From: Chitinophaga pinensis
Lineage (GTDB): Bacteria; Bacteroidota; Bacteroidia; CAMBQF01
DNA: 42,129 nt
NCBI GenBank assembly: GCA_945869825.1
Contig: CAMBQF010000006.1
Coordinates: 1-42,129 of the forward strand
Reading direction: 5' to 3'
The notes under the pieces are model-generated. The model made no database searches, was not told the DNA's origin, and worked only from the letters and a program-made list of their open reading frames with translations. Position 1 is the stretch's first letter, and every line of letters starts with the position of its first letter. Below are positions 3,001-22,106 of the stretch, one piece after another. A program made the translations under genes and the position numbers.

Positions 3001-6000
3001 GAAACAGCAGTGCCATCGCAACCATTGCCGCAGCTATTTGCACGGCGACCTTGTACAATAATACTAGAGCCAGCCGCATTAGGCACAGTGATACCAGCGG
3101 CTGATGTATAGGCGGCCCATGTGCTTCCACCATCTGTTGAAACACGATAATCATCGGTACAGCCTGCACCACCTGAACCTGCTGTAATTGTAGCAGAAAC
3201 CGAACCTCCGATACAAACATCAGTATTAATTACTGGTGAAGACGAAGCTAATGTTGGTGCTACCGGGTCTGCAACTATGGTAAATGTTGTATACCTTGGG
3301 GTGCTCCAACCGCAGCACTGGTTAAGTTCGCTATAGTATATATTATAAGTACCCGGAGATAAAGAGGCTACGTTAATTGTTGGGTTAGCAAGCGATGACG
3401 TTAAACCGCTAATTGGCGTGCGTGCATCAGTATTAAATATCCTCCAATCGTAATTTACTGGCGATGTACCACCCGAGCTTGCAAGCGTAACACTACCTCC
3501 TTGACATATAGTTGTAGTTGAAGCTCCGTTAACTGTAATAGTAGGTAAAGCACGCGTAGTTGGGCTTAGTATTAAAAAAGCTGGCACGTTTGCAGGACCT
3601 GTAAAATCATATCGTGTAGGTGCAGATACCGTACTGGTAGTATTTACCACAACCGGACTGCTTGCCGTTGATTGTCCCGGCGTACCGTTGGCCTGCAAAT
3701 CAACCAAGTTTAAACCACTAGGTAATGTCCAGGTACCAGAAGCTTTTGTTAATGAAATTTGAGAGTTTTGGCAAAAAGCGAATGTATTATAAGGAATAGT
3801 CATAACCGGGCTATTAGCAATAGTGCCTGATTGTGTTGTAGCTCCTGTGCCTACAGTATACATAGAAGCTGTAGCACCCGCTGCTCCGCTTTGACCAGTA
3901 CCACCCCTTGCACCATTGCCACCAGCGCCACCTGCTCCTGCAGTACGCCTGTCGCTATTACAGCTTCCCTGAGCTGGACCTGCAGCACCACCGGCACCGC
4001 CATTGCCTCCCACACCGCCACTGCCACCAGTACCACCGCTACCTGCATTAGCATTTGTATTTGTAAATGTACCAGAAGTAGCATTTGAATTTCTGTAAAT
4101 ACCAAAAGAACCGCCACCGCCACGGCCACCAAAACCGCCCTGACCGCCGCCGCCGCCTTGGCCGCCACCGCCGCCGCCGTTGCCTGGATTGTCGTTATAA
4201 TAACACGCCCAACCTGTATCTTCTCCTCTGGTGCCGCCGCCACCGCCGCCGCCTGCGCCTGAATTACCATGGCCGCCCTGCGCACCTACGCTATTTTGAG
4301 CGTAGTATGCACCGTATGAGTTATTAGCTGCCGCAGTACCACCATTTATGCCAGAAGTGCTCACGGTTGTTGTTGTAAAACCGCCGCCACCACTGCCTGC
4401 AGCAGAGTTACCTCCAGTACCGCAACTACCTCCACCGCTGCCTTGGGCACCGCCAGCGCCGCCAGTTGAACCAACACCAGCAAAACCTTGTTGACCAGCT
4501 ATAGCTACACCATCTCTTCTAGATGAACCACCGCACCCCCCTCTGCCGCCACTATTACCCCAGCTATTGGTGTTTAAGGTATTACTAGTTAAACAAAAAT
4601 TATAATTATCTCCGCAAGAGCCTGATGAAGTTTGGCCACCACCACAACCCCCTCTCCTACAAGCATCACCATTACAATCGCCGTCTGATTCTCCTTGTCG
4701 CCCTGCAGAACCAGTATGGCCCGTTGCTCCAGTGGCACCTGCTTGACCAACACCACCATTGCCCGCTGTTATATTACAACGAACTACATTATATCCACTT
4801 GTATTATTAAGCCAAAGGCCATAATTAGAACAGCCACGGCCGCTGCCATCAGGCGTCATTCCGTTAGCTGTAGTAGTGGTAATATTTAAATCTATTAAAG
4901 ACCAACCTGTTGTACCATCAGCTTTAAAACCCATTCTATGGCAAAAACCACTTACACTTTCAGAGCCACTGCACGTAATTGTACTGGGTGTATTGTTGGC
5001 TTTAACCCACAAACCTCCTGTATTTGTATAACCTCCTTCAATAACAACATTTGTAGGGATTGAAACTACACTTGGTTCAGTTATACTTCCTGCAACCCTA
5101 ATATGACGTCTAGTACCCAATTGTGTTATTGCGTAAGATATTGTAGCATATGGATTATTAGGACCACCGCTTAATGCATTGTCTGTACCACCATTTGCAA
5201 CATAAGCAAAATCGCAATTTGGCGAACCTACGGCTATAGCACAGGTTACGGTTGCTGGCAAACTGCAACCATAATTATAGGTTAAGTTTACATTATAATT
5301 ACCTGCAGCTGTTGGGGCTGTCCATGCAAATGGAGTGCCTGAGCCTGTTGTAGGAGAGCCTGCAGAAGCAGACCATGTTAACGAGGTGTAATTAACAGCC
5401 GCACCCGCATTAGGGCTAAGTAAAACAGGCAGGGTAATAGCCTGACCTGGAAAAACGGTAGAGCCGCAAACACCCGATGGGATAGCCGGAGCAGCATCGC
5501 CGGTAGAATAAGTATAACCACTAACGTTAGAGTATGGACTTGATGTATTAAAAGCATAAGTAACCACGTAATTAGCCGATGTTGTGGTGTAGCTGCCAAA
5601 GTCGTAACCACAGTTTGATGTTGCCTGCAAACGATAGTAGCGGGTGCCTGATATTTGACCAGGGGTAAAGCTTAATGTAGTAGCCGTATTAACACTGCCA
5701 CCATTATTGTTGGCGCCTGTAACATCAACCCACGGGCCTGTTGGGCTGTTTGATATTTGCCAACGGTACCAACGGGCCAACGAACGTCCGTTAGCATCTG
5801 TGCTAATAGTAGCGCTTAATACGCTTGGCGCAGCGCCATTACAACGCATTTGGTTAGTTGGGGTTTCGCCACTAATGCCCGGGCTAAATAAGTAGCTCCA
5901 ATACAAACTCCAGTTTACCTGATAATAACCAATATCACAAGTGCGGCCGCCGGTAAAAAAGTTCCACTGGCACGGGGGGGTTGCCGAAGCTGTAGCTGTG

Positions 6001-6365: not shown

Positions 6366-6712
6366 GGTACTATATATAATAATTTTTACTAAAATAATCA
6401 AATTGGCTAACCACATAAGACCATAATCGTTTAAAATCTTACATAGCAATTTTACTGCAAAGTACAAAAAATAACTGAGACCTCCAAAAAATTAAACAAT
6501 GGGACAAAAAACTTTACAGTAAGTTAATGTGTTTCAGTTGGGTTGAGGTGAAATTAATTGCAAAACAGCGCCTTGCTAACTGTAGAAATATACGGTACAT
6601 AATCCGTAACCCAAACCAATTTTTATTAAATACTTACATAGCAAAATAGGGGATGCTACACAAAAAACGAAATGCCTGAAATAAAAATTTGGAAAACTAA
6701 ATCTACAATACG
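6366..6712. other. 347-bp intergenic region; candidate promoter and a 12-bp direct repeat
   Basis: No ORF of note lies here. It is the 5' region of the giant minus-strand gene. A near-consensus -7 element reading TACTTTG on the minus strand lies at 6464-6458, one base shorter than TAnnTTTG and about 92 bp upstream of the ATG. The 12-mer CTTACATAGCAA occurs twice, at 6438-6449 and 6633-6644. I see no convincing terminator for the upstream leucine-rich-repeat gene. Confidence 0.4.
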
Positions 6713-7779: not shown

Positions 7780-8910
7780 ATGATGTTTTGTAAAGTTATT
7801 AATAAATTAAAAATCATCATATTGCTATCTGTAGTATATATATCGCTTGCTTTTATTGGTATTCCAGCAAATGATAATCCAAAGCCATATATTTTAAATT
7901 ACGACACAACGCTACTTGAAAAACCGAATATACCTGCGAACAATCCTCTAACAGTAGAAGGTGTTGAGCTAGGGCGATTGTTATTTTATGATACATTATT
8001 ATCTGGAAACAATACTCAATCTTGTGCAAGTTGTCATAAGCAAGAATTCTATTTTAGTGACGGAAAAACGACAGCAATTGGGAGCCAAGGCCATATTGGC
8101 AAAAGAAACTCTATGGCATTAGTTAATTTAGCATTTAAAAACAGCTTCTTTTGGGATGGAAGAGTTATCAGCCTTGAATCTCTCATAAAATTTCCTTTAA
8201 CAGATTCAATAGAAATGCAGCAAGACACAATTTTATTAATTCAAGAAATTCAAAATCACCCATATTATCCTGATTTATTTAAAAAAGCATTTGGGAACAA
8301 GCAAATAGAATTTAACGACGTTTCTAAAGCTATTGCCCAATTCCTCAGAATTATATATACTAAAGGTACGAGTTTTAATTTCAAAAATGAAAATGCAAGT
8401 AAATCCTTTAAGTTTAAGAGTGCAAAAAACAGTAAAGAAAACGACAGCCTCTTAGCAATTGTAAATGAGATGCACCCTCGTTTTTCTTTAATGTGTACAA
8501 GATGCCATAGAGGGGCTGTTGGCAGGGGAGATTTTTTTGCTGATATTAATATTGATACTAATAAAATTACAGGCAGGTACCTAATTACTAAAAATCTTGC
8601 TGATACGGGTAAGTTTATTATACCTCCTTTAATTAATGTTTTGCATACGGCACCCTATATGCACGACGGCCGATTTAAAACTTTACGAGAAGTATTAGAC
8701 CATTACAGTAATCATATTGGGTTATTAAAAAAACTAAATAGTAGTATTTTGAGCGACTCTATTGAAAATACAATAACTGAAAATGATAAAAAAAATATAG
8801 AGCTTTTTTTTGAGATTTTTGATGATGAGAGTATAAAAACGAATAAAAAATATTCAAATCCTTTTGCAAGTCCTAACTTCAAATGGACTGATTATCCAGA
8901 CTTTAAATAA
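7780..8910 (+). CDS. Di-heme cytochrome c peroxidase family protein (CCP/MauG type), copy 1
   Basis: 376 residues. The family reduces H2O2 in the periplasm using electrons from small c-type cytochromes, or, in MauG-like members, oxidises other substrates. An N-terminal hydrophobic segment at about 10-27 serves as signal or anchor. Two c-heme sites are visible, CASCH at 82-86 and CTRCH at 239-243. The family signature APYMHDGRF at 291-299 supplies a Met candidate axial ligand (Met294), and FFWDGR lies at about 123-128. Translation may begin at either ATG of the adjacent pair, 7780 or 7783. The stop overlaps the next gene's start (TAATG), so the two are coupled. Both genes are visibly more AT-rich than the surrounding genes, so they may have been acquired. 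Peroxidase versus MauG-like activity is not settled by the sequence. Confidence 0.9.
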   Translation: MMFCKVINKLKIIILLSVVYISLAFIGIPANDNPKPYILNYDTTLLEKPNIPANNPLTVEGVELGRLLFYDTLLSGNNTQSCASCHKQEFYFSDGKTTAIGSQGHIGKRNSMALVNLAFKNSFFWDGRVISLESLIKFPLTDSIEMQQDTILLIQEIQNHPYYPDLFKKAFGNKQIEFNDVSKAIAQFLRIIYTKGTSFNFKNENASKSFKFKSAKNSKENDSLLAIVNEMHPRFSLMCTRCHRGAVGRGDFFADINIDTNKITGRYLITKNLADTGKFIIPPLINVLHTAPYMHDGRFKTLREVLDHYSNHIGLLKKLNSSILSDSIENTITENDKKNIELFFEIFDDESIKTNKKYSNPFASPNFKWTDYPDFK

Positions 8911-10010
8911 TGAAAAAGATTAATAATAATTTTTATAAAGCAGTTACATTATCGCTATGTGTTTTTATTTTGCTATCATTTACCTACAAAAACATTGCTG
9001 ATGAGCCCAGTCCGTATAACATAATATATGACACTACCTACTTACCTAAACCTAATATTCCTGAAGACAATCCCTTAACAATTGAGGGTGTTGCACTTGG
9101 CCGTTTATTATTTTATGACTCTTTATTATCAGTAAATAAATCTCAATCTTGCGCATCATGTCATAAACAAAAATTTTTTTTTACTGATGCTGGCAAGAGT
9201 GTTAGTAATGGCGCTTTAAAAATACCTGGCGACTTTAACACTATGCCCCTTGCTAACCTGGCATGGCAAACAGAGTTTTTTTGGGATGGCAGGGTAAAAT
9301 CTCTTGAAGAGCAGGTTTTAGAGCCAATACAAAAACACAATGAAATGGCAAAAGACTTGCGTTTGCTAACTTATCAACTATCAAAACATAAATACTACTC
9401 GGGATATTTTAAAAAAGCTTTTCCAAAAGATAAAAACCCAGTAAACTCAAATAATATTAGCAAAGCTTTAGCACAATTTGTAAGAACAATATACGTGTCA
9501 CCAAAGCCTTTTAAAAATGGTGGATTTGGAGATTTTGAAGGAGATAAGATGCCTGACAGTGTAATGAAGACAATACAATACAAGGCGTTTGTAAACTTAT
9601 CAGATATGTGTTCAGACTGCCACTCTAGCGAATTTTATGGTGGAAAAAATGATGAACTTGCTACAAACGGAACTACATATTTTGATAATGACCCAACAAA
9701 CGACAAATTAAAGTTTAAAGCCCCCTCTTTAATAAACCTTGCTTACACCGCGCCCTATATGCACGATGGGCGTTTTAAAACATTGTATGAGGTAATAGAC
9801 CATTATGACCAACATATTACTGAACTAGACACCTATAACCCTGATATTGTGCAGAATAAAATTAAAAACAAATTCTCAAAAGCCGACAAGACAGAAATGG
9901 TTAATTTTTTATTAAGCCTAAAAGACACCACAATTTTAACTGACACGCGTTTTTCCAATCCGTTTACGAGTAAAAAATTTAATTGGGCAGATTACCCATA
10001 CTTTAAATAA
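8910..10010 (+). CDS. Di-heme cytochrome c peroxidase family protein (CCP/MauG type), copy 2
   Basis: 366 residues, a paralogue of the preceding gene and collinear with it over nearly the whole length. An N-terminal hydrophobic signal or anchor at about 10-26 precedes the mature part. Heme sites are CASCH at 81-85 and CSDCH at 234-238, and the APYMHDGRF signature lies at 281-289. The segment LEEQVLEPI at about 132-140 matches the family better than the equivalent LESLIKFPL in copy 1. Between the heme sites the two copies differ most just before the second heme, where copy 1 has a Lys/Ser/Asn-rich insert. It starts on the last base of the upstream stop codon. Tandem CCP-like pairs may divide labour, for example different redox partners; this is inference. 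Confidence 0.9.
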   Translation: MKKINNNFYKAVTLSLCVFILLSFTYKNIADEPSPYNIIYDTTYLPKPNIPEDNPLTIEGVALGRLLFYDSLLSVNKSQSCASCHKQKFFFTDAGKSVSNGALKIPGDFNTMPLANLAWQTEFFWDGRVKSLEEQVLEPIQKHNEMAKDLRLLTYQLSKHKYYSGYFKKAFPKDKNPVNSNNISKALAQFVRTIYVSPKPFKNGGFGDFEGDKMPDSVMKTIQYKAFVNLSDMCSDCHSSEFYGGKNDELATNGTTYFDNDPTNDKLKFKAPSLINLAYTAPYMHDGRFKTLYEVIDHYDQHITELDTYNPDIVQNKIKNKFSKADKTEMVNFLLSLKDTTILTDTRFSNPFTSKKFNWADYPYFK

Positions 10011-10125: not shown

Positions 10126-11268
10126 ATGTCACTACGCATTATTTGCGGGCTGCTTTTATGCGCCCTGTTAATGGTTTCGTGCAACAACGATGATGTTGAC
10201 ACATCTGCCCCAGCCGGCCCTTATATTGCAAGTGCTGCACCAATACTACAAAACCCCGATACCCATACGGTTATTATCAAAACCGACTCGCTGGCCAAAA
10301 AGGTGCGCCGCTATGTTAAGCCCAAAGACGTTACCGTTAAAGAGGCTTTAAAAGATATGCGCTTTAACCCGCAGGCAGTAAAACTATTTGTATCGTTAGC
10401 AGACAAAACCGGAGGGCAAACCTATTTTGCAAAAAACAGCAAGCTGGTGGCACAAACTATTGTATCTATATTAGATAAACATGCAACAGAAATGACTGAT
10501 GTGGTTTTGCTGATAGATAAAACCGGGAGTATGGATGATGATATTGAAAACGTAAAAAAGAGTGCTTCGCGCATTATATCAACCCTGAAAAAATTTAAAA
10601 ATATACAATTGGGGTGGGGTGCTTATGGCGATAAAAACGACGACCCCGCAAACTGGTTCCAGCTAAATAAGCTATCGGCCAATTTGGACGAGAGCCTTGA
10701 TAAAATTAATGGCCTTTATACAGGTGGTGGTGGCGATTTGCCCGAATCGGTAAATGATGCTATCTATAAAACTGTTGACGAGATGAACTGGAGGCCCGAT
10801 GCGCGGAAAATGATACTGGTGATAGGCGATGCACAATCGCTGGAACCACCTTTGGCCGACAGGAGTATGGGTGAGGTTATTAAAAAGTGTATTTCATCGG
10901 CGGTGCATGTAAACCTATACCCGGTTGTTATAAGTACCGAAGATATTATGGGCGACCTGCACGATGATAGCCGCACATTAACAGAACCAGCAGAAGGTGC
11001 CAGGCTAACAACGCCTGTTAAAACCGGAAATATTATAACCCGTACCTACCCCAACCCAACTACCGACAATGTTTACATTGATTTTACAGGTACCGGGCCA
11101 TATGTGGTTGATGTAAAGTCGTTGCTGGGCAAAACCATCGCATCAGAAGAAATAACAACCAACCGCTATACCTGCAACCTGCTAAATGTACCCGCAGGCA
11201 TATACCTAATTACAGTAACCGATAAAAGTAGTGGTAAAATGGAGGTAAGGCAGGTGGTAAAAAAGTAA
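10126..11268 (+). CDS. VWA-domain lipoprotein with a T9SS type A sorting domain
   Basis: 380 residues. The N-terminus is a lipoprotein signal with lipobox LMVSC (lipidated Cys19), followed by acidic NNDD, which resembles the Bacteroidota lipoprotein surface-export signal. A von Willebrand factor A domain spans about 125-285. Its metal-site motif is DKTGS at 131-135 in place of the usual DxSxS, and GDAQS forms the later strand. Residues ~308-380 are a type A T9SS sorting domain beginning TYPNPTTDN, with the usual GIYLITV and a basic C-terminus. A lipid anchor together with a sorting domain is odd, because each would normally attach the protein on its own. VWA proteins of this kind mostly mediate metal-dependent protein binding; the ligand here is unknown. 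It is terminated by a strong hairpin at 11295-11332. Confidence 0.85.
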   Translation: MSLRIICGLLLCALLMVSCNNDDVDTSAPAGPYIASAAPILQNPDTHTVIIKTDSLAKKVRRYVKPKDVTVKEALKDMRFNPQAVKLFVSLADKTGGQTYFAKNSKLVAQTIVSILDKHATEMTDVVLLIDKTGSMDDDIENVKKSASRIISTLKKFKNIQLGWGAYGDKNDDPANWFQLNKLSANLDESLDKINGLYTGGGGDLPESVNDAIYKTVDEMNWRPDARKMILVIGDAQSLEPPLADRSMGEVIKKCISSAVHVNLYPVVISTEDIMGDLHDDSRTLTEPAEGARLTTPVKTGNIITRTYPNPTTDNVYIDFTGTGPYVVDVKSLLGKTIASEEITTNRYTCNLLNVPAGIYLITVTDKSSGKMEVRQVVKK

Positions 11269-11294
11269 GTTCAACAAACACTAATGGCTAACTA

Positions 11295-11332
11295 AACACA
11301 AAAAGCCGCCCAAAAGGGCGGCTTTTTGTGTT
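11295..11332. terminator. Strong, possibly bidirectional intrinsic terminator
   Basis: A perfect 17-bp stem (11295-11311 with 11316-11332) encloses an AAAA loop. The GC core is GCCGCCC/GGGCGGC, with a T-run on the plus strand and a matching one on the minus strand. It ends the VWA gene and may also stop transcription arriving from the anti-sigma gene. Confidence 0.9.
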
Positions 11333-11406
11333 ATAAAAACCTAAACTACATGAACTACTCATTAACAAATTCTGCAAACTATGCAGAGCCAACTTACATT
11401 CTCATA

Positions 11407-11432
11407 GTATTAGTCGACCAAGGGGCTAATAC
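11407..11432. terminator. Hairpin downstream of the anti-sigma-like gene
   Basis: A 9-bp stem with one G-T pair (GTATTAGTC with GGCTAATAC) lies just past the stop of the minus-strand gene at 11445. There is no T-tract, so it may act as an RNA-stabilising hairpin instead of a terminator. A smaller perfect stem, TCTGCA/TGCAGA, lies at 11371-11387. Confidence 0.3.
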
Positions 11433-11444
11433 CTTACAAAACAG

Positions 11445-11732
11445 TTACATATTATTTAATTTGTTTTCAACCAACTGCTGAATGCGGATTTTAGCATCGT
11501 CGGCAAGGCGCATTTTAGAAAAATCAGTAATATCCATCAGCGATGATTTTCTAATCAGCTCATTTAAAAACACACTTTGCTCATTGTAGCGGCGGCAGCC
11601 ATTACAAACAACAAGATGGAAACGCAACGCCAGTTTTTCATACACATCAAGCTTACGCTCCTGTTTCTTTTCAATCAGAACGGTGGCTTCGCGGCATGCC
11701 ATTATAAATACGTTAAAAATCTTTTTAATCAC
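11445..11732 (-). CDS. Small zinc-finger anti-sigma-like protein
   Basis: 95 residues, 6 bp after an ECF sigma gene on the same strand. Cys13 together with His39-x3-Cys43-x2-Cys46 matches the zinc-binding anti-sigma (ZAS) pattern of HxxxCxxC with an upstream ligand. The remainder is helical and charged. It has no transmembrane segment and no periplasmic part, unlike the FecR-type anti-sigma factors usual in this phylum, so any signal must be sensed in the cytoplasm (redox or zinc are typical of soluble ZAS proteins). The role is inferred from motif plus gene order. It could instead be a zinc-binding accessory protein without anti-sigma activity. Confidence 0.75.
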   Translation of the reverse strand: MIKKIFNVFIMACREATVLIEKKQERKLDVYEKLALRFHLVVCNGCRRYNEQSVFLNELIRKSSLMDITDFSKMRLADDAKIRIQQLVENKLNNM

Positions 11733-11738
11733 TTTATA

Positions 11739-12326
11739 CTATAATTTAAACCAGGTTTTTTCTAAACAAGTACGCAGCATAAGCTTTGCACGGTGCATTA
11801 TTACCCAGTAGTTAGACGCTGATACATTTAATTCCTTACAAATATCATCGCTATCCTTTTCTTCCAAAAATTTAAGTGTAATAGCAGTATGCCAGTTTGC
11901 CGGCAGTTTACCTACGCATTTTTGCATAGCCAGCTGAAAGTCTTTATCATCAAGTATGTTACCCTCATCGGCACTCCATTGCTTTGGTTTTGCCTGCTTA
12001 GTCCACTCTCCGCCATTATCAAAAAACAAGTCAAGAAAAGAGCGGCTTTCATCGCCCTGCATAAAGCTATTGTCAGAAACCTCGTAGCGTGTAGATGCCT
12101 TACGGTAATGGTCGGCAATTTTGTTTTTAAGAATAGAGAACAACCATGTACGTTCTGATGAGTTACCCTTGAAATTTTTTATGCCGTTTAAGGCCGACAG
12201 GAAAGTTTCCTGAACAAAGTCTTCGGCAAGCTCGGTACTGCTGCTTTTAGAAAGGGCATATCCATATAAATCATCCGCATACTTATCCGTCCAGTTCTGC
12301 GGATTTAAAGCCTGTTGTCCTACCAT
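11739..12326 (-). CDS. ECF-family RNA polymerase sigma factor
   Basis: 195 residues. Region 2 is recognisable at about 14-85, with LAEDFVQETFLSAL and a later RTWLFSILKNKIADHYRK that matches the ECF -10 recognition helix. Region 4 at about 130-190 contains LPANWHTAITLKF and a helix-turn-helix (DDICKELNVSASNYWVIMHRAK). The linker of about 45 residues is longer than average and rich in charged and Trp residues. The anti-sigma-like gene follows after 6 bp. The gene is divergent from the Gly-rich surface protein at 12457, with 130 bp between the two starts, so it may control that gene, but no shared promoter motif proves this. Identification as an ECF sigma factor is firm. Confidence 0.92.
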   Translation of the reverse strand: MVGQQALNPQNWTDKYADDLYGYALSKSSSTELAEDFVQETFLSALNGIKNFKGNSSERTWLFSILKNKIADHYRKASTRYEVSDNSFMQGDESRSFLDLFFDNGGEWTKQAKPKQWSADEGNILDDKDFQLAMQKCVGKLPANWHTAITLKFLEEKDSDDICKELNVSASNYWVIMHRAKLMLRTCLEKTWFKL

Positions 12327-12427
12327 AGTCAGTATGCTAAAATAGATAATAATGGTTTATACCTGCTACTTTATTAAGCTTTGGTTATTTAGTTGCCCAA
12401 AAATGTGAAAATAACAGTTACAATTAT

Positions 12428-12435
12428 TAACTTTG
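12428..12435 (+). promoter_or_regulatory. -7 box of the first Gly-rich gene
   Basis: TAACTTTG is a perfect match to TAnnTTTG and ends 21 bp before the ATG at 12457. No clear TTG was seen at the -33 position. Confidence 0.6.
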
Positions 12436-12456
12436 TTACTTTAGGCCTAATGCCTG

Positions 12457-15400
12457 ATGCTTATGTTATTGGCCCGACGTATACTATATAGGTTATATTT
12501 ACCGCTTATTATATTTCTGTTTTCTAGCTTTGTAGCCAAAGGGCAGCAATGCAACATTATATATATAACCCCCACCGGTAATGGTACAGGCACCAAAGCT
12601 AGCCCTGCAAGTATTGCCGGCGGTATTGCGCTGGCAGGGCCAGGCAGCCAGCTATGGCTTGCAGTGGGTAACTACACCATTGATACCCCAATTAATTTAT
12701 TAGATAACGTAACACTTGAAGGCGGTTTTGACCCTGCCAATAATTGGACAAAGGTAAATACCGCGCAAACTATAATAAACCGCACCAATGCCAACCCGCA
12801 AACCAACCCCGAGCGTTTAGTGGCAGTATCGTGCATAAATATTACAGGCTTTACCATACAGGATGTAACAATAAAAACAGCCAATGCGCTAGGCAATGGG
12901 GTAACTACTTATGGGATTTACTTAAGTGGCTGTTCTAATTTTAATATTAGCCGCTGTAATGTTACAGGTGGCAATGGCTCTAACGGCCTGCCCGGAACCC
13001 CGGGAACTAATGGTATTAATGGGGGCAATGGCACAGCCGGTCAAAACGGTAGCGAAGACGGCGGTGGAAACACCAACGGTGGGACTGGCGCATCAGGATC
13101 TTACCCTGGCAGCAGCAATGGTGGCAATGGTGGCAATGGTGGCGCTCGCGGCACATACTCATTTCCGGCAGGAGGCAATGCTCCGGGCGGCACAGCAGGT
13201 TTAAACGGCGGCGGCACAGGCAATGGCACAGGTGGCGTTGCAGGCGTGGGCAACTGTAACTTAATTTCTATAGGGTGCGATGCCGGCCCGGCCCAGTGGG
13301 GTCAACCAGGCACCGATGGGTTAGATGGCGCCAATGGTGCCAACGGTACATCGGGTACCCCATCTTTTGCAGGCGGATTTTTTGTAAACGGCACAGGCCA
13401 AAACGGCGTTGCAGGCCAAAACGGCGGCGGTGGTGGCGGCGGTGGCGGCGGCGGAGCCCAAGGCTGTATACCATTTGGCTTTTTTGTGCCTAACAATAAC
13501 GGATCGGGCGCAGGTGGCGGTGGTGGTGGCGAAGGCGGCCAGGGCGGTGCCGGAGCCTTAGGTGGTACAGGCGGCGGCGGCTCTTTTGGCATTTTTGCCT
13601 GGGCAAACGGAGCCAGCGGACGAGTAAAAGACACTTATACATTTTCAGGCATACCAGGCCAGGGCGGCCTTGGTGGCGCGCCAGGCGGCTTAGGTGGCTT
13701 TGGCGGCAATGGCGGCAACGGCGGCGGACCAGGTTGCGATATTGGCCGCGGGGGCAATGGTGGATCTGGTGGAGATGGCGGAGATGGAGGCAATGGAGGA
13801 AACGGTAGTTTAGGCCTTAGCCTACCCATTTTTGAAGACCCTAATGCTACAGCATTGATACAATCGGACATGCGCACACCAGTAGAACCAGTTATTAATG
13901 TGCTAAATACAGGCTGTACGTTTTCTGATATTGAATTTTCTACCACAGCAAATGGTATAGTACAATGGTTTTTTGATGGAGGAACAATTCCATTGCAGGC
14001 TGTTGGCAACAATGTTACCGTGCAATACACTACCCAAGGGCGCCATACGGTAACTATGGTCCTTAATGGTGTGCCTTATATTTATACCGATTTTATTGGT
14101 ATCTTCTCTAATGGTATACCTTACCTGCCTTCCATTATTCCATCTAACGACACTGTTTGTTTAGGTGGCACGTTAGACTTTACCAGCTCTTTTGCAGGCA
14201 CTAACTACGAGTGGTGGCTTGAGGGCACCACCCCAACAAATTTTAACGGACCACAGTACCAAACCCTAAACGGTGTGCAGTTTAACACCTTAGGCGATTA
14301 CCGGATTTTGCTGCAAACAACGTCGCCCTGCTGCGGACGTTCTACCATAGATACAATTTTAATACACGTTGTGCCTTATGTAAATGCTGATGTTTTTGTT
14401 TTTGCATCATCAACCAGCATTTGTGCTGGCACACAGGTAAACTTTGGCGCATCGCCTGTAAATGCTGGCAGCAACCCTGTTTACACATGGACAGTTAATG
14501 GCGCAACCGTTGGCACCAACAGTAATACCTTCAGCACATCAACCCTAAACAATGGCGATATTGTTGCTGTAAGTATGGGCAGCAACCTGCTTTGCGTAAA
14601 CAACAACCCGGCAGCATCTGTGCCTATTGTAATGACAGTTAACCAGCCGCCAGTGCTAAACTGCAGCTCTATTGGGCAGTTTTTAGGTGCCCCTACCCAG
14701 TTTTCGGTTAACCCAGTAGGCTCTCAACCATTTACCTATGCATGGAATTTTGGCGATGGTGGTATATCAGACCTGCAAAACCCGCCACATACTTATGGCT
14801 CTACAGGCAACTACACCGCAACAGTAACAGTTACCGATGCCAATGGCTGCGAGGCTACCTGCGATGTGCAGGTTACTATTAGCATAGCCCCGCAGGTTAC
14901 AGCCCTGTTTACAGGCAATATTACTGCTATTGGCTGCGGCACAGGCTCTGTTAGCTTTACCGACCAAAGCACCGGCGGCGTTATACAATGGACATGGGAC
15001 TTTGGCGATGGGGTTACCGATGCCAACCAAAACCCTACCCATAACTATACCGCTCCAGGGTATTATGATGTAACCTTAATTGCATCTAACGGTGTATTGG
15101 CCGATACATTGGTGCTTCCCAACTTTATATATATACCACCGCCACCCGTAGCTGAGTTTACCGCTTTAGACAGTATTGAGTGTGAGCCCTATATTTTTAG
15201 GTTCTTAGACCAATCGCTAGGTGGTGTAACTGATTGGTTGTGGGATTTTGGCGATGGTAACACATCGGTACTGCAAAACCCATCGCACGAATATGCGGCA
15301 CCAGGTAGTTACAACGTTACCCTTACCGTAACAACGGCAGATAACTGCACGGCCACGCTTACCACACCTAACTTTATACAATACCTTGAACAGCCCGAAG

Positions 15401-16161
15401 CAGGTTTCTTTACCTTTGACACGTTAATGTGCACAGGCGAGGCTATATCTATCACTGATACCTCTGTTGCAGCTAATAAATGGCTGTATTATTTTGGCGA
15501 TGGCACACCTGTAGATGTAAACCAAAACCCGATACATGTATACACTGAGCCGGGCATTTATACTGTTACCCAAATAGTAGAAAACTCCTCGGGCTGTAGA
15601 GATACTATGATTGCTACGCAGTACATAGAGATTGTACCTTACCCTGAAGCAAATTTTAATGCCGATACCTTTAAACTACAATTGCCTGACACCACGGTGC
15701 AGTTTTTTAACCTAAGCCAGTATTACGATTCACTGGTATGGGTACTGGGCAATGGCGACACCACATGGGTTGATAACCCCGTAGGTGTTTACCAGGATTC
15801 TGGCATTTATGTTATTACCCTTATTGTTAGCAACAGCATTGGATGTGTAGATACTTTGCAAATACCACTGCAGGTTATAGAGCAGGAATCATTCTTTGTT
15901 CCAAACTCATTTACCCCTGACGATGACTTTATAAATGACAACTTTAGTGTGTTTGGCAGGGGAATTGTTAGTGGAGAGATGTATATATACGACAGATGGG
16001 GCCAGCCCGTGTTTACTACCCCCGACCTGTTTACAGGTTGGGATGGTACAACCAAAGACGGGAAGGATGCCATGATTGGCGTATATGTATATGACATTAA
16101 GATAACGTGGTTTACAGGCCGGACGTTTGAAAAGCGTGGCACCGTAACACTTATCAGGTAA
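12457..16161 (+). CDS. Gly-rich beta-helix / PKD surface protein with a T9SS type B sorting domain
   Basis: 1234 residues. The signal peptide covers about 1-29 (hydrophobic core, then AKGQQ). Residues 30-170 resemble a parallel beta-helix lead-in (CNIIYVTPTGNGTGT..., LEGGF, GCSNFNISRC). Residues 170-452 are a Gly-rich block containing an 11-Gly run and the aromatic break GGGGSFGIF. Ig-like segments follow to about 740. Five PKD domains then run over about 745-1140, four with the FGDG signature and the last with GNGD. The end, about 1145-1234, is a type B T9SS domain (gliding-motility-associated C-terminal type) with SFTPDDDFINDNF and YDRWG. The first ~470 residues are collinear with the protein at 18882. 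The start could also be the ATG at 12463. It is probably exported to the surface as an adhesin or matrix protein; no catalytic motif was seen. The lipoprotein gene at 16173 follows after 11 bp. Confidence 0.92.
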   Translation: MLMLLARRILYRLYLPLIIFLFSSFVAKGQQCNIIYITPTGNGTGTKASPASIAGGIALAGPGSQLWLAVGNYTIDTPINLLDNVTLEGGFDPANNWTKVNTAQTIINRTNANPQTNPERLVAVSCINITGFTIQDVTIKTANALGNGVTTYGIYLSGCSNFNISRCNVTGGNGSNGLPGTPGTNGINGGNGTAGQNGSEDGGGNTNGGTGASGSYPGSSNGGNGGNGGARGTYSFPAGGNAPGGTAGLNGGGTGNGTGGVAGVGNCNLISIGCDAGPAQWGQPGTDGLDGANGANGTSGTPSFAGGFFVNGTGQNGVAGQNGGGGGGGGGGGAQGCIPFGFFVPNNNGSGAGGGGGGEGGQGGAGALGGTGGGGSFGIFAWANGASGRVKDTYTFSGIPGQGGLGGAPGGLGGFGGNGGNGGGPGCDIGRGGNGGSGGDGGDGGNGGNGSLGLSLPIFEDPNATALIQSDMRTPVEPVINVLNTGCTFSDIEFSTTANGIVQWFFDGGTIPLQAVGNNVTVQYTTQGRHTVTMVLNGVPYIYTDFIGIFSNGIPYLPSIIPSNDTVCLGGTLDFTSSFAGTNYEWWLEGTTPTNFNGPQYQTLNGVQFNTLGDYRILLQTTSPCCGRSTIDTILIHVVPYVNADVFVFASSTSICAGTQVNFGASPVNAGSNPVYTWTVNGATVGTNSNTFSTSTLNNGDIVAVSMGSNLLCVNNNPAASVPIVMTVNQPPVLNCSSIGQFLGAPTQFSVNPVGSQPFTYAWNFGDGGISDLQNPPHTYGSTGNYTATVTVTDANGCEATCDVQVTISIAPQVTALFTGNITAIGCGTGSVSFTDQSTGGVIQWTWDFGDGVTDANQNPTHNYTAPGYYDVTLIASNGVLADTLVLPNFIYIPPPPVAEFTALDSIECEPYIFRFLDQSLGGVTDWLWDFGDGNTSVLQNPSHEYAAPGSYNVTLTVTTADNCTATLTTPNFIQYLEQPEAGFFTFDTLMCTGEAISITDTSVAANKWLYYFGDGTPVDVNQNPIHVYTEPGIYTVTQIVENSSGCRDTMIATQYIEIVPYPEANFNADTFKLQLPDTTVQFFNLSQYYDSLVWVLGNGDTTWVDNPVGVYQDSGIYVITLIVSNSIGCVDTLQIPLQVIEQESFFVPNSFTPDDDFINDNFSVFGRGIVSGEMYIYDRWGQPVFTTPDLFTGWDGTTKDGKDAMIGVYVYDIKITWFTGRTFEKRGTVTLIR
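12966..13810 (+). repeat. Gly-rich (GGX) block, copy in the 1234-aa protein
   Basis: About 280 residues of GGNG, GGXG and GTNG type repeats, including an 11-residue poly-Gly run at about 13423-13455. Aromatic and Cys-bearing breaks interrupt it: GTYSFPAGG, SFAGGFFV, and GGGGSFGIF. It matches the block at 19372-20230 in order and in the positions of the breaks. Confidence 0.9.
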
Positions 16162-16172
16162 AACAAAAAAAT

Positions 16173-16673
16173 ATGAGAGCATATTTAATTGCCATAGCAG
16201 CCATTGGCTTAGTAGCTGTATCGTGTAAAAGTAAAAAAGAAATGACCGACAATACAGCTAAAGCAGACAGTATTCAGGTAGCAGACAGCATTGCTAAAGT
16301 TTTTGCTGACATAGCTATTGCCGATGCGCAAAACACACCACCAACCATTGCTGTTGGCGAGCCTAACCCGGCAACACCAACACCCAACGATAGCATCCGC
16401 CTAAACGTATCTTTTTACAGCCCGGGTAGCGGTATTAACTACCGCGCAGCCCAATCGCTTGATGGGTTTTTAACTAAATACCAGGCGGCCAACCCGGGTG
16501 CCGTTACCATTTATAAAACCGCATGGGGCCGTGAGGGCGAAGTGGATTATTGCTTTAAAATGAACGACAAAACAAAAGGAGACGACTTTGTAAAACAGGT
16601 AAAAGACCTTTTAGCGGGGCAAGACCGTATTAACTACAAAGAAAATACAACCTGCCGTAAGCCAAGAAACTAA
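16173..16673 (+). CDS. Small lipoprotein of unknown function
   Basis: 166 residues. The lipobox is VAVSC with Cys at 18, followed by a basic KSKKE stretch. A low-complexity Ala/Asp/Thr/Pro linker runs to about residue 72. A compact C-terminal domain of about 90 residues follows (LNVSFYSPGSGINYRAAQSL, then WGREGEVDYCF, then a Cys near the end). I do not recognise the domain, and its two Cys could form a disulfide. It lies 11 bp after the large Gly-rich gene and is probably cotranscribed, so it may be an accessory lipoprotein for that protein. Confidence 0.8.
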   Translation: MRAYLIAIAAIGLVAVSCKSKKEMTDNTAKADSIQVADSIAKVFADIAIADAQNTPPTIAVGEPNPATPTPNDSIRLNVSFYSPGSGINYRAAQSLDGFLTKYQAANPGAVTIYKTAWGREGEVDYCFKMNDKTKGDDFVKQVKDLLAGQDRINYKENTTCRKPRN

Positions 16674-16721
16674 GGCTGCTTTTAATTTCAATTAAGCATA
16701 TTAATATGCTGCCATAGGGCT

Positions 16722-16729
16722 TAACTTTG
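16722..16729 (+). promoter_or_regulatory. -7 box almost touching the GNAT start
   Basis: TAACTTTG is a perfect TAnnTTTG match and ends 4 bp before the ATG at 16734, so the transcript should be leaderless or nearly so. Confidence 0.6.
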
Positions 16730-16733
16730 CCTT

Positions 16734-17201
16734 ATGCAAATTACCATACGCCCTGCTATTCAAACAGATGTGCCTGCCATGCTTGGCCTGGTGCAAGAAC
16801 TTGCCTTGTATGAAAAAGCACCACAGGAAGTAACTGTAACATTAGAAGAAATGACAGCCGCTGGCTTTGGCACCGGCGCCGTTTGGAAAGCCTTTGTTGC
16901 CATTGTTGATGGCAGGTTGGTAGGCATGTCGTTATTTTTTACCAAATACTCAACCTGGAAAGGCAAGTGCATGTATATTGATGATATTGTTGTTACAGAA
17001 AGTATGCGCGGTGCGGGTGTTGGCAAATTACTATTTGAAGAAACCGTTGCCGAGGCTAAACGCACCCATATGCGCCGCTTAGAGTGGCAGGTGCTTGAAT
17101 GGAACTCTCCGGCCATTAACTTTTACAATAAATTTAGTGCCGTATTAGACCCAGAATGGGTTAACGGAAAACTAACGTATGAACAGTTACAGGCTATGTA
17201 A
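16734..17201 (+). CDS. GNAT-family N-acetyltransferase
   Basis: 155 residues, the normal length for a single GNAT domain. The acetyl-CoA binding motif A is RGAGVGKLLFEE at about 91-102, preceded by the strand MYIDDIVVTESMRG. The C-terminal motif NSPAINFYNKFSA gives the conserved N-x-x-A-x-x-F-Y. It resembles the diamine (spermidine/spermine) acetyltransferase group in motif order and the early LALYEKAP segment, but the substrate cannot be fixed from sequence alone. It acts in the cytosol. It appears to have its own promoter (16722-16729). Confidence 0.9.
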   Translation: MQITIRPAIQTDVPAMLGLVQELALYEKAPQEVTVTLEEMTAAGFGTGAVWKAFVAIVDGRLVGMSLFFTKYSTWKGKCMYIDDIVVTESMRGAGVGKLLFEETVAEAKRTHMRRLEWQVLEWNSPAINFYNKFSAVLDPEWVNGKLTYEQLQAM

Positions 17202-17265
17202 AGAACAGGGTGAAAACTTCTAAGGTAATTATTTGCCAAACATTCTACCCTATTTCATTCTACCG

Positions 17266-17273
17266 TATTTTTG
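17266..17273 (+). promoter_or_regulatory. -7 box of aspartate kinase
   Basis: TATTTTTG matches TAnnTTTG and ends 8 bp before the chosen ATG at 17282. It lies inside the longer open frame that begins with GTG at 17210, which argues against that upstream start. Confidence 0.5.
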
Positions 17274-17281
17274 CCCTGCAA

Positions 17282-18550
17282 ATGAAAGTATTCAAATTTG
17301 GAGGAGCATCTGTTAAAGATGCCAATGCCGTTAAAAATGTTGCTGAGATAATTAAATGCTACCCTGGCGATAAGCTGGTAGTAGTTATATCAGCTATGGG
17401 TAAAACCACTAATGCACTGGAAGAAGTTGCCAAAGCCTTTTTTTATAAAAATGGCGATGCTAAAGAAAAGCTACAAGTGGTAATAGATTACCACAATACC
17501 ATTTTAACCGGACTTTTTGAAGATAAAAAACACCCGGTGTTTGAAGATACAAACGGGCTGATAAGCGCATTAGACTGGGCATTGGAAGATGAGCCCATAA
17601 AAGATTATGATTTTGAATACGACCAGATAGTATCCGTTGGCGAATTACTATCTACCAAAATAGTAAGCCACTACTTAAATAGTGTTGGCATAGCCTGCAA
17701 ATGGGTTGATGCCCGCGATATAATACAAACCGATAACACCTACCGCGATGCACGTGTTGACTGGCCTTTGACAGAAGCTGCTACTAACGAAACGGCAGGT
17801 GCTTTGCTTAACACGCATAGTGTATTGATAACACAGGGGTTTATTGGCTGTACATCAGAAAACTACACAACCACTTTAGGGCGCGAGGGGTCTGACTATA
17901 CCGCAGCAATTTTAGCCTATTGCCTTAATGCTGAAAGTGTAACCATTTGGAAAGATGTGCCGGGTGTATTAAATGCAGACCCTAAGTACTTTCCTGATGC
18001 CCAAAAATTTGATAAACTATCGTATTACGATAGTATAGAGTTAACTTATTACGGAGCAACAGTTATCCACCCTAAAACTATAAAGCCATTAGAGAATAAA
18101 AAGATACCGCTATATGTAAAATCATTTATTAATGCGGATAAAGAGGGCACAACCATTAGCGATGCGCCTATGCAACCCCATCTTTCATCGTACATATTTA
18201 AAGTAAACCAGGTGCTGGTTTCTATTTTACCCAAAGACTTCTCTTTTATAGCCGAAGAAAGCCTGAGTGAGATATTCAGTATATTTACTACCTTTAACAT
18301 AAAGATAAACCTGATGCAAAACTCAGCCATTAGTTTTTCTGTGTGTATAGATGATACAGCGCGTTTAGATGAATTGATGGGCGAATTGAAAAAAAGCTAT
18401 AAAGTGCTACATAACAAAGGGCTTGAGCTTATAACAATTCGTAACTACACCAAAGAGGGTTTTGATAAGGTATTAACAGGTAAAAAAATATTGCTGGAGC
18501 AGCGCACCCGAAATACCGCACAATTGGTTGTTCTGCCTGAAAATGAGTAA
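17282..18550 (+). CDS. Aspartate kinase (monofunctional)
   Basis: 422 residues from the ATG at 17282, where the protein begins MKVFKFGGASV, the canonical amino-acid-kinase start. It phosphorylates aspartate at the head of the Lys/Thr/Met/diaminopimelate pathway. The GREGSDYTAA motif at about 202-211 is the conserved kinase segment, and YYGATVIHPKT at about 258-268 is also typical. Residues ~300-422 are ACT-like regulatory domains. No homoserine dehydrogenase domain is fused. A GTG at 17210 would add 24 residues that do not resemble the family, so I reject it. The next gene begins 2 bp after the stop. Confidence 0.95.
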   Translation: MKVFKFGGASVKDANAVKNVAEIIKCYPGDKLVVVISAMGKTTNALEEVAKAFFYKNGDAKEKLQVVIDYHNTILTGLFEDKKHPVFEDTNGLISALDWALEDEPIKDYDFEYDQIVSVGELLSTKIVSHYLNSVGIACKWVDARDIIQTDNTYRDARVDWPLTEAATNETAGALLNTHSVLITQGFIGCTSENYTTTLGREGSDYTAAILAYCLNAESVTIWKDVPGVLNADPKYFPDAQKFDKLSYYDSIELTYYGATVIHPKTIKPLENKKIPLYVKSFINADKEGTTISDAPMQPHLSSYIFKVNQVLVSILPKDFSFIAEESLSEIFSIFTTFNIKINLMQNSAISFSVCIDDTARLDELMGELKKSYKVLHNKGLELITIRNYTKEGFDKVLTGKKILLEQRTRNTAQLVVLPENE

Positions 18551-18552
18551 CA

Positions 18553-18864
18553 ATGAGTGACCTGCCAAGCTATAATAACCCTAAAGAAGTGCCGGGAAAA
18601 TTTACTGTTGTAGATAACGGTGCTAAAGATGAAAAAGGACGCAGCCGGATAAAAATACGTGTTAAAGAACGTATTAAAACCCGCACGCGTACGCGGAAAA
18701 AGAACACAAAAAGCTTAAAAAGGCGCTCGCTTAAAATACTACAGGTAGTTTTATTAATTTTAGCAATTGGGGCATTGTTTTTTGCCGGTTACCAGATTTT
18801 GGTTTCGGATATGAACAGGCCAATTATATACAAGAAAAAAGCAGCCCCCACAGTTAATCCATAA
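18553..18864 (+). CDS. Small basic single-span membrane protein
   Basis: 103 residues, not recognised. Residues 1-60 are hydrophilic and become extremely basic at about 31-60 (alternating Arg/Thr and Lys/Arg). A single transmembrane helix follows at about 61-83. A short tail ends in KKKAAPTVNP. By the positive-inside rule the basic part is cytoplasmic. It follows aspartate kinase by 2 bp and precedes the second Gly-rich gene by 17 bp, so it may be cotranscribed with both. Confidence 0.7.
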   Translation: MSDLPSYNNPKEVPGKFTVVDNGAKDEKGRSRIKIRVKERIKTRTRTRKKNTKSLKRRSLKILQVVLLILAIGALFFAGYQILVSDMNRPIIYKKKAAPTVNP

Positions 18865-18881
18865 GTAAAAAAGATAGCTAT

Positions 18882-21800
18882 ATGCCATTTCGTATTTTTA
18901 TTACCCTGTCGTTTTTGTTTTTAGCCGGCATACTTAGCGCACAAGAGTGTAATATTATTTATGTAACACCAAATGGCGCAGGCACTGGCGTAGCAGGCAC
19001 AAAGGCAACACCTGCAAGTCTTACTTACGCATTAACACTGGCTAATGCACCAACCAATAAAATATACATGGCGGCTGGTACCTATATCATATCGCAGCCG
19101 CTAAGTCTGGTAAGCAATACTACTATTGAAGGGGGCTTTAACAGTAACTGGGACAAAACCAACAACTCGGTAACAACCATACTGCGCGACAACCAAAACA
19201 TTCAACCCAACCCACTAAGGCTGATAGGGCTAATTGGCGCAAACATTAGTAACTTTCGACTACAGGATTTAACAGTGCGCGTGCTTACAACTTTTGAAAA
19301 TTCAGTATCTACATACACAGTATACCTAAATGGCTGCTCTAACTACCAGTTGGTTCGTTGCAAGCTTATAGGCGGCAATGCCGGCAACGGAACCAACGGA
19401 ACCAACGGCGTTAATGGCATAGGAGGTACTGGTGGCGCAGCAGGCTTAAATGGCGATGAAGATGGTACATGCTGCACCAATGGCGGCGCCGGAGGCTCAG
19501 GAAGCTTTCCAGGAAGCAATGCCGGAGGAACAGGTGGTAATGGCGGACAGCGAGGAACCTATGTTTTCCCTACCGGTGGACAGGCTTATAATGGCACCCC
19601 CGGCACCCCCGGACTGGGCCTTAATGGCGGCGGTAACGGTTTTGGCGGCATAGGTATTTTTACTGTTATCCTCTCGCTTAACTGCGACCGTACAGTATCA
19701 TCAGACGGAACAGCAGGCATTGGCGGTATAGACGGGTTACCTGGTACAGTAGGAGCCAACGGTATATCATCATTTAGCGGCGGATTTTTTGTTCCCGGCG
19801 ATGGATTGCCCGGCAACACGGGCCTTAATGGCGGTGGTGGCGGCGGTGCCGGTGGCGGAGGGTCGCAAGGCGGGCTTGCCCACGATATTTTATTTGGCTT
19901 ACCCCCTAACACCAACGGATCTGGAGCCGGCGGCGGTGGCGGTGGCGAAGGAGGCCAGGGAGGCACAGGTGCATCTGGCGGAACAGGTGGCGGTGGTGCA
20001 TTTTGCCTGTATTTATTTAACAATGGAGCTAACGGAATTGTAAAAGATTGCCAGTATACTGTAGGTTTCCCTGGCTTTGGCGGCCAAGGCGGGCAGGGGG
20101 GCATTGGTGGCACAGGTGGTATAGGTGGTGCTGGTGGCGGCCAGTTTAACTGCGATGTGGGTGCTGGTGGCCAAGGCGGTGCCGGAGGAAAAGGAGGTAA
20201 TGGTGGCGCTGGTGGAACCGGAGCTGACGGGGTAAGCTTTGCCGTTTATGAAGATGGCGGCACTCCATTACAACAGTTTAACATAAATGGGTTGCAACAG
20301 CCTATTGTGCAGGTAAACTACTCTGGCTGCACAGGTGTTCCGGTCGAATTTTTTACCACTGCCACAGGCAGTGTAACCTGGTATTTTGGTGCAGGCGCAA
20401 GCCCTGCAACAGGTAATGGCACAACTGGTATTTGCCAGTTTAACACCACAGGGCGCAAAACATTTACAATGGTAAATAATGGGGTAGCTTATACATTTAC
20501 CGACTATATTGATATCTTCAATAACCAGGCTAACCCCGTACCTTCTATTACTGTTGCTGATGATAGCCTTTGCGAGGGCGAAACAACAACACTGGCCAGC
20601 AGTATAGCATCAGACTCTTACAACTGGTTTGTAACAGGGCCAAACGGATATTTTGATATTGTAACGGGAGCTACTAACCAAACATTACCAGGCTATGTTT
20701 TTCCCACTCCGGGAAACTACCGTTTTGTGTTGCAAACAATTAGCAACTGCTGCGGCCCATCGTTTGCTGATACGGCTTTTGTAAATGTGGAAGACATATT
20801 GCCGCCAGCAATTAGCATAGCATCGAGCATTGATACTATATGCCAAAACGAAATTGTAGTATTTACTGCCGAATCTGATAGCGTAGGCACTAACCCAAGC
20901 TACCAATGGTTTGTAAACAGCACCCCTGTTGGTGCAGATGCACCGGCATACTCTAGTTCTAATATTGCCAATGGCGATGTTGTTACCTGCCAGGTAACAT
21001 CCAGCCTGGGCTGCGGTACGGGCTTACAGGCAACGTCAAACAACGTATCAGTATACGTTATAGCACCACCACAGCTTACATGTAATGCAGACTCATTTAT
21101 AACCGGGCAACCAACGTATTTTGATACAGAAGTTACAGCGGGCGGCCTCGCGCCTTTTGACTATATATGGGACTTTGGCGATAACGCCAGCGGCCAGGGG
21201 CCTAGCTTATCGCATATATATGCCGAGCAAGGGCCTTACAGCATAACTGTAACGGTTACTGATGCTAACGGATGCACCAATACCTGTACGTTTGTTATAT
21301 CAGTATCGAGCATACTTGCAGCTAATTATGATTTATCGGCCACAGGTGGTTGTCCGCCATTAACGGTAGACTTTACCAATAACAGCACCAACGCTGTTAC
21401 CTATTTGTGGGATTTTGGCGATGGCTCTACCTCTCCGCAGGAAAACCCAACCCATACCTACAACTCGCCGGGAACATACGATGTAACACTATATGCCTTT
21501 GGCGTAAGTGGCAACGTTAGCACCAGCACGCCTAACCAAATTGCTATATACCCAACACCAACGGCAAATTTTTTGGCGTTCCCTATTAATACAGAAAACG
21601 GTAGCGACTCTATCCAGTTTACCGATAACTCTTTTGATGCAACCACCTGGCTGTGGGATTTTGGCGACCCTGCATCGGGAACTAACAACACCTCTACCCT
21701 ACCCGCCCCAATACACTGGTACGCAGGTAATGGCACTTACAACGTTACGCTGATTGTAAGCAACACCTTTGGATGTACCGACACAGTTAGCAAAAACAAC

Positions 21801-22106
21801 CTGTTTGGTGTAAGTGTGGGCCTTAACGAGCAAAATCAGCCGGTAAGCGGCTTACAAGTATACCCTAACCCTACCACAGGCAACCTAAACATTAGTTTTA
21901 CGCTAAACGAAAAAGGACCTTTAAAAATTGATTTGTATAGCATTGATGGCCGCTTAACTGCTCCATTGTTTAATGCTATGCAAAGCAACGCCGGTGAGTA
22001 TAAGCTTAATTATGCCCTGCCTGCCGACCTGCAAACAGGCCTGTATTTGCTACGTATAGTGCAAAATGGCAAGCTGGGTATTGCAAAAGTAAGCGTAGTT
22101 AGGTAA
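18882..22106 (+). CDS. Gly-rich beta-helix / PKD surface protein with a T9SS type A sorting domain
   Basis: 1074 residues and a paralogue of the 12457 protein. The signal peptide is about 1-20 (LAGILSAQ). Residues 21-163 are the beta-helix-like lead-in (CNIIYVTPNGAGTGV, IEGGF, GCSNYQLVRC). Residues 163-450 are the Gly-rich block, with breaks GTYVFPTGG, SFSGGFFV and GGGGAFCLY in the same order as the paralogue. Ig-like segments with Cys pairs follow. Three PKD domains with WDFGD lie at about 750-805, 820-880 and 905-970. Residues ~990-1074 are a type A sorting domain beginning VYPNPTTGN and ending in GIAKVSVVR. So the shared N-terminal half is joined to a different class of secretion tail from its paralogue. 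Likely a surface-anchored structural or adhesive protein. Confidence 0.92.
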   Translation: MPFRIFITLSFLFLAGILSAQECNIIYVTPNGAGTGVAGTKATPASLTYALTLANAPTNKIYMAAGTYIISQPLSLVSNTTIEGGFNSNWDKTNNSVTTILRDNQNIQPNPLRLIGLIGANISNFRLQDLTVRVLTTFENSVSTYTVYLNGCSNYQLVRCKLIGGNAGNGTNGTNGVNGIGGTGGAAGLNGDEDGTCCTNGGAGGSGSFPGSNAGGTGGNGGQRGTYVFPTGGQAYNGTPGTPGLGLNGGGNGFGGIGIFTVILSLNCDRTVSSDGTAGIGGIDGLPGTVGANGISSFSGGFFVPGDGLPGNTGLNGGGGGGAGGGGSQGGLAHDILFGLPPNTNGSGAGGGGGGEGGQGGTGASGGTGGGGAFCLYLFNNGANGIVKDCQYTVGFPGFGGQGGQGGIGGTGGIGGAGGGQFNCDVGAGGQGGAGGKGGNGGAGGTGADGVSFAVYEDGGTPLQQFNINGLQQPIVQVNYSGCTGVPVEFFTTATGSVTWYFGAGASPATGNGTTGICQFNTTGRKTFTMVNNGVAYTFTDYIDIFNNQANPVPSITVADDSLCEGETTTLASSIASDSYNWFVTGPNGYFDIVTGATNQTLPGYVFPTPGNYRFVLQTISNCCGPSFADTAFVNVEDILPPAISIASSIDTICQNEIVVFTAESDSVGTNPSYQWFVNSTPVGADAPAYSSSNIANGDVVTCQVTSSLGCGTGLQATSNNVSVYVIAPPQLTCNADSFITGQPTYFDTEVTAGGLAPFDYIWDFGDNASGQGPSLSHIYAEQGPYSITVTVTDANGCTNTCTFVISVSSILAANYDLSATGGCPPLTVDFTNNSTNAVTYLWDFGDGSTSPQENPTHTYNSPGTYDVTLYAFGVSGNVSTSTPNQIAIYPTPTANFLAFPINTENGSDSIQFTDNSFDATTWLWDFGDPASGTNNTSTLPAPIHWYAGNGTYNVTLIVSNTFGCTDTVSKNNLFGVSVGLNEQNQPVSGLQVYPNPTTGNLNISFTLNEKGPLKIDLYSIDGRLTAPLFNAMQSNAGEYKLNYALPADLQTGLYLLRIVQNGKLGIAKVSVVR
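19372..20230 (+). repeat. Gly-rich (GGX) block, copy in the 1074-aa protein
   Basis: About 286 residues of GGX/GTNG repeats, matching the block at 12966-13810 in length and in the order of its breaks. The conserved stretch G-S-G-A-G6-E-G-G-Q-G-G is identical in both copies. Confidence 0.9.

Follow-up and report, generated by a model that had tools for sequence, protein, structure and literature searches.

The window, by which we mean the whole stretch of 42,129 nucleotides analysed here, lies on contig C6 of an assembly that comprises 189 contigs and 2.98 Mb in total. On its forward strand we found the two open reading frames on which the original prediction was based: gene Z (12457-16161), which encodes a protein of 1234 amino acids, and gene Y (18882-22106), which encodes one of 1074 amino acids. 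Both products are putative type IX-exported proteins that consist of a presumed signal peptide, a head, a PKD stalk and a sorting tail. In Z, a hydrophobic stretch at the N-terminus ends before residue 31, as far as can be read by eye. The head follows, with a beta-helix part (residues 31-168; 12547-12960) and a glycine block (residues 168-462; 12958-13842), a period-three glycine lattice with a few beta rungs. The Z stalk (13843-15897) includes four PKD stretches, matched by PF18911 and by PF00801 four times each, and is followed by a type B sorting tail (15898-16158). Y is built in the same order on the same strand: a beta-helix part delimited by alignment to Z (18945-19367), a glycine block (19362-20258), a stalk with three PKD stretches, matched three times by each of the same two families (20259-21857), and a type A sorting tail (21858-22088). 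Between Z and Y there are three genes, named by eye as a putative lipoprotein, a GNAT-like protein and an aspartokinase-like gene.

The genome contains five copies of the head. Besides those of Z and Y, a third and diverged copy lies in the window itself, on the reverse strand (3846-5216), with 35% identity to the Z head and a profile score of 440 bits. It is part of the large reading frame 3-6467 (-), which runs off the contig end; a relative in genome G001 (locus L021) has an apparent type A tail at its end, but its frame is broken. The remaining two copies are on contigs C29, in a frame of 1182 amino acids, and C2, in a frame of 2691 amino acids, both with a type A tail. In G001 the counterpart of the C29 paralogue (locus L022, G001:C1:2203000-2215000) is interrupted by stops and changes of frame, which are possibly sequencing errors in that assembly.

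The tail types that had been proposed, B for Z and A for Y, were borne out by the profile models of two libraries. The Z tail scored 46.1 bits with PF13585 (cut-off 27). With TIGR04131 (cut-off 35) the whole Z protein scored 32.6 bits, slightly below the cut-off, the isolated tail 38.2 bits and the tail in the genome scan 37.9 bits. The Y tail scored 38.7 bits with PF18962 (cut-off 27) and 34.0 bits with TIGR04183 (cut-off 23), the latter being listed at 40.4 bits for the tail feature 21858-22088. The relatives described below gave the same result: each of the 60 type B tails was recognised by TIGR04131 and each of the 61 type A tails by TIGR04183, there were no cross-matches, and profiles that we built ourselves split these tails cleanly into two classes. 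A misassignment of the tails is thus ruled out by the two libraries together with the 121 tails of relatives. In the genome as a whole, the matches to sorting tails numbered 31 for type B and 145 for type A.

Z and Y are genuine paralogues over almost the full length of the ectodomain. Their BLASTP alignment has 987 columns with 44% identity and a score of 447 bits, and their heads are about 54% identical. The motifs that had been predicted to be collinear were all found in the same order in both proteins: CNIIYITP in one and CNIIYVTP in the other, EGGF and GCSN...RC, and then the breaks of the glycine block, namely GTYSFPAGG or GTYVFPTGG, SFAGGFFV or SFSGGFFV, and GGGGSF or GGGGAF. The similarity had been placed in the first 470 residues or so. 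It is real there, but this limit was wrong, as the homology takes in the PKD stalk as well and reaches residue 975 or so. Since both glycine blocks are around 40% glycine, one could imagine two unrelated glycine-rich proteins whose likeness is purely compositional. We therefore compared each segment of the alignment with shuffles that preserve composition. The z values were 49 for the beta-helix part, 32 for the glycine block and 73 for the stalk; the glycine block still gave z = 30 with every glycine masked, and z = 16 against 15-residue pieces shuffled in order. The shuffles thus refute a likeness of composition only, and as the homology also extends beyond the glycine block, we regard this explanation as practically dismissed.

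The duplication is not a recent event in this genome. Orthologues of Z and of Y were found in both sister genomes of the genus, and the Z heads of these species are 86-89% identical, as opposed to 44-54% between Z and Y; furthermore, the Z-Y paralogy spans many families (see below), and a recent duplication is therefore rejected. Compared with the orthologues of the genus, dN/dS was below 0.15 in every head, stalk and tail segment of both genes, according to simple Nei-Gojobori counts. A separate observation concerns the type B tail of Z (15898-16158): the protein sequence is identical to that of the orthologue in the sister genome G002, and dS is 0.017, compared with 0.37-1.25 elsewhere in Z. 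Perhaps a recent recombination between species at the 3'-end left this pattern.

Regarding the head, we found no family for it in Pfam, NCBIfam or the PDB sequences, apart from one weak Pfam match in one of 56 members. AlphaFold, given an alignment of 56 rows, modelled it with a mean pLDDT of 96.3. The predicted strands lie in the first 140 residues or so and in a few later rungs, and long stretches are without helix or strand. The nearest solved folds were rhamnogalacturonan and pectate lyases, over about 170 residues and with a best Foldseek E of 8.8e-4. On this predicted fold, the start of the head would be a short right-handed parallel beta-helix of the pectate-lyase kind. The description of both proteins as glycine-rich beta-helices has to be corrected accordingly: in the model the beta-helix makes up about the first 140 residues and some later rungs, and the glycine block is a separate lattice without helix or strand. 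Folded alone, the block was again predicted with confidence (pLDDT 94.8, pTM 0.84) and with nearly no helix or strand. Its sequence contains GXX, GGX and all-glycine stretches, and glycine recurs in it with a marked period of three (power 0.69, compared with 0.24 in shuffled sequences and 0.45 in the highest of 300 shuffles). The block is probably a polyglycine-II sandwich, that is, layers of left-handed glycine helices with three residues per turn. We infer this from the model and the period, because a Foldseek search of the PDB with the block alone gave no significant solved match; the best was a cyanophage fibre with E 8.7.

Two known systems resemble this architecture. In gp38 of phage S16 a polyglycine-II sandwich extends from beta-helix turns (PMC6851490), and here likewise a beta-helix precedes a glycine block, which has period three and interspersed beta rungs. 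However, the block has about 290 residues here as opposed to about 73 in gp38, and searches of the PDB gave neither a sequence match nor a significant fold match; the likeness is one of architecture only. The glycine-triplet blocks of the mycobacterial PE_PGRS proteins, which are exposed at the surface, have also been modelled as a polyglycine-II-type fold with confidence by AlphaFold (PMC9436101). Unlike these, the present head has a beta-helix in place of the PE domain and would be exported by the type IX system, and we do not claim homology.

In order to know how widely the head occurs, we built a head profile from five rows and ran it against 395 genomes sampled from the class; 88 of them had matches with E <= 0.001, some of which were weak. 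A short beta-helix profile, run against 396 genomes sampled from the phylum, gave only weak matches beyond the window's own genome (best E 3e-5), and the head family is therefore patchy. An earlier scan for relatives with glycine-rich patterns gave no usable relative; a scan with the beta-helix part was used instead and gave 73 loci. We read these 73 named loci and 60 regions of class genomes. The loci were selected from the best matches, and the pair counts that follow are not frequencies. The original prediction had asked whether pairs with mixed tails recur, and they do: neighbouring genes that combine one ectodomain design with two tail classes occur in at least 11 families. There were 26 loci, representing 11 family codes and one unplaced record, in which a type B gene comes after a type A gene on the same strand. 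The two genes were within 30 nt of each other in 21 of these 26 loci and overlapped by 4 nt in five, using a simple rule for start codons. In most lineages the pair looks like a single transcription unit. Several lineages have an extra type A gene at the front, giving the order A-A-B (L069, L070, L073 and L074). In the window's genus, Z precedes Y, the two being about 2.7 kb and three genes apart, and this order is the same in both sister genomes. A literature search, whose coverage left out preprints and most subscription journals, gave no description of such a pair.

According to the head tree, each orthogroup has kept its tail type since long ago: on 122 heads the tail label changed only 4 times, while shuffled labels changed 41 times on average and none of 500 shuffles was as low. 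The tree of the beta-helix part alone required 6 changes, and that of the stalk with the tail removed, on 114 rows, required 2. The heads fall into four groups, namely Z (type B, around 1250 amino acids), Y (type A, around 1090), X (type A, around 1165, with the C29 copy among its members) and W (type B, around 1370); members of X and W are frequently encoded apart from the pair. A single origin of all the type B heads of around 1250-1300 amino acids was rejected (AU test, p = 0.005); those of families f43 and f76 do not form one clade with Z. Gene conversion or exchange, or an odd composition, may be the cause of this departure.

One gene combines the two groups. The gene at 10467-13799 of genome G135 (locus L079) is a natural chimera with a Z-like head, a Y-like stalk and a type A tail. 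In segments 151-450 it is 61-77% identical to Z and 41-53% to Y, whereas from about residue 600 (segments 601-750 and 901-1050) it is 40-52% identical to Y and 25-33% to Z; the segment 751-900 is equivocal. It lies within the type B group on the head tree and within the type A group on the stalk tree, with 99% support. To judge from this one gene, the head can apparently be recombined with the stalk and tail.

The genes for both export routes are present in the genome. PorV was matched with 439 bits (cut-off 90) and PorU with 1362 bits (cut-off 420). Six genes were above the cut-off of PF11751 for PorP/SprF-like proteins, two of them fragments at contig ends and none of them in the window. GldJ is on contig C92, near PorU and two PorP/SprF-like genes, and scored 506 bits together with its neighbours (cut-off 458). 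The presence of GldJ allows a movement of Z along the surface, as far as the gene content goes, but it does not demonstrate a role as gliding adhesin. A search of the window for a PorP-like motif also found nothing; a shuttle gene next to its substrate is frequent, not universal. Among the 32 Z loci there was no example of a linked PorP/SprF gene, and the lone match (L109) adjoins another type B gene. In five loci of the W type (L093, L109, L153, L160 and L182) a PorP/SprF-like gene, recognised by motif, directly follows the W gene, and the two are likely to form a pair of substrate and shuttle.

What the tails do is known from other Bacteroidota. In Flavobacterium johnsoniae, tail swaps showed that the tail alone sets the fate of a protein, so that the SprB tail brings other proteins onto the helical track, and that type A tails lead to static anchoring and display or to release (PMC12618676). 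The idea that lipid attachment is the usual outcome of a type A tail was therefore too narrow. For type B proteins, binding to PorP-like barrels has been described (PMC9143113). They are probably not cleaved, and their export seems to require over 200 residues of the C-terminus (PMC10202324), which agrees with a joint passage of stalk and tail in the present case.

We consider it moderately likely that one adhesin-like head is shown at the surface by two type IX routes, Z being held by a PorP/SprF-like barrel and Y being processed through PorV and PorU. Z and Y would be ancient paralogues of one family of surface proteins composed of head, PKD stalk and sorting tail, and both would be exported first by Sec and then through the type IX system, where the tails would direct them to different shuttles. 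Z would exit through a PorP/SprF-like barrel, uncleaved and held at the surface, where it would be fixed or moved by the gliding machinery. Y would exit through PorV, be cleaved by PorU and then be bound to surface lipid or released. These two fates are probable because of the F. johnsoniae tail rules and the genes for both routes in the genome, and the two-way display that the original prediction had proposed thereby gains indirect support. The head, presumably a short beta-helix with a glycine lattice, would most likely bind a surface, a polymer or other cells; that it is a binding domain of the adhesin type is probable, and it is the weakest step of the proposal. Where the pair forms one transcription unit, as appears to be the case in most lineages, the held and the cut form of a similar head would be made together.

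Several results argue for the display of one head by two routes: the homology of Z and Y spans head and stalk, dN/dS is low in all segments of both genes, the tail class was confirmed in every one of the 60 and 61 relatives, the order A-then-B is kept in 26 loci with 21 pairs within 30 nt, and the trees of 122 heads and of 114 stalks need only 4 and 2 changes of the tail, respectively. PorV, PorU, PorP/SprF-like and GldJ genes are in the genome, and the published work indicates that the tail decides shuttle and fate (PMC12618676) and that type B proteins bind PorP-like barrels (PMC9143113). Nevertheless, this reading is weakened by the separation of the pair in the window's genus and by the lack of a PorP/SprF gene linked to any Z gene. 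Furthermore, the published tail rules were worked out in other Bacteroidota, and both routes could end in a similar display, because type B proteins are also static in Porphyromonas gingivalis and in the case of Fjoh_3952.

The close neighbourhood of the genes, often with a 4-nt overlap, and the conservation of the order A-then-B between families could also mean that Z and Y are co-expressed partners in a cooperating complex, for example with a released or lipid-bound Y that docks on a held Z. The result might be a mixed surface fibre or layer, in which the tails set position and stoichiometry within one structure instead of providing independent displays. We consider this unlikely, as the members of groups X and W, which differ in their tails too, are often encoded elsewhere and the pair is separated in the window's genus. 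Somewhat less probable still is that the heads diverged for different ligands and that the difference in tails is an old accident, both routes being ordinary surface display. The Z and Y heads are indeed only about 54% identical and each is well conserved within its own group, but the tail type of each group has stayed fixed over many families and published tail swaps do alter the fate of a protein (PMC12618676).

Returning to the display by two routes, Z resembles type B adhesins such as SprB and Fjoh_3952 in its tail class, its large size and a probably adhesive nature (PMC12618676, PMC9143113), and the genome encodes PorP/SprF-like proteins as in those systems. Unlike them, Z has a different and unnamed head domain, no linked shuttle gene and a type A paralogue as partner. 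Adhesins of both tail classes also occur on one cell of F. johnsoniae, namely SprB (type B) and RemA (type A) (PMC10202324). However, these have not been described as having homologous heads, whereas the paralogues Z and Y do have them and are mostly encoded side by side.

What this analysis adds is that the mixed pair recurs and is old, that a natural chimera exists, and that the head is an unnamed domain. As a tentative and broader proposal, which we find plausible rather than probable, the gene pair may be a conserved unit with two anchors, in which a head of undescribed fold, a beta-helix with a large polyglycine-II sandwich, is offered both as a type B form that is held or moves and as a type A form that is cut and then lipid-bound or shed, and in which recombination can exchange the head against the stalk and tail. 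Such a pair bears on the question why type IX systems retain two routes of sorting. What the tail does has so far been studied by artificial swaps, and Z and Y are the natural version, side by side and in many families, for which the chimera of G135 serves as an internal control. The head itself is an unnamed surface domain whose confident AlphaFold model belongs to the rare glycine-lattice kind.

Other genes of the window are also worth taking into account. A gene at 10126-11268 (+) encodes a protein with a von Willebrand factor A domain, a type A sorting tail and a lipoprotein-like N-terminus; it is kept in both sister genomes, and a lipobox together with a T9SS tail is an odd combination. 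The gene at 35215-37122 (+) encodes a collagen-like protein with a GPQGPAG repeat, in which neither Pfam nor NCBIfam matched a T9SS tail. Finally, two tandem genes at 7780-10010 (+) resemble di-haem cytochrome c peroxidases, with CASCHK motifs, and their relatives are found near head genes in G001 and in G002.
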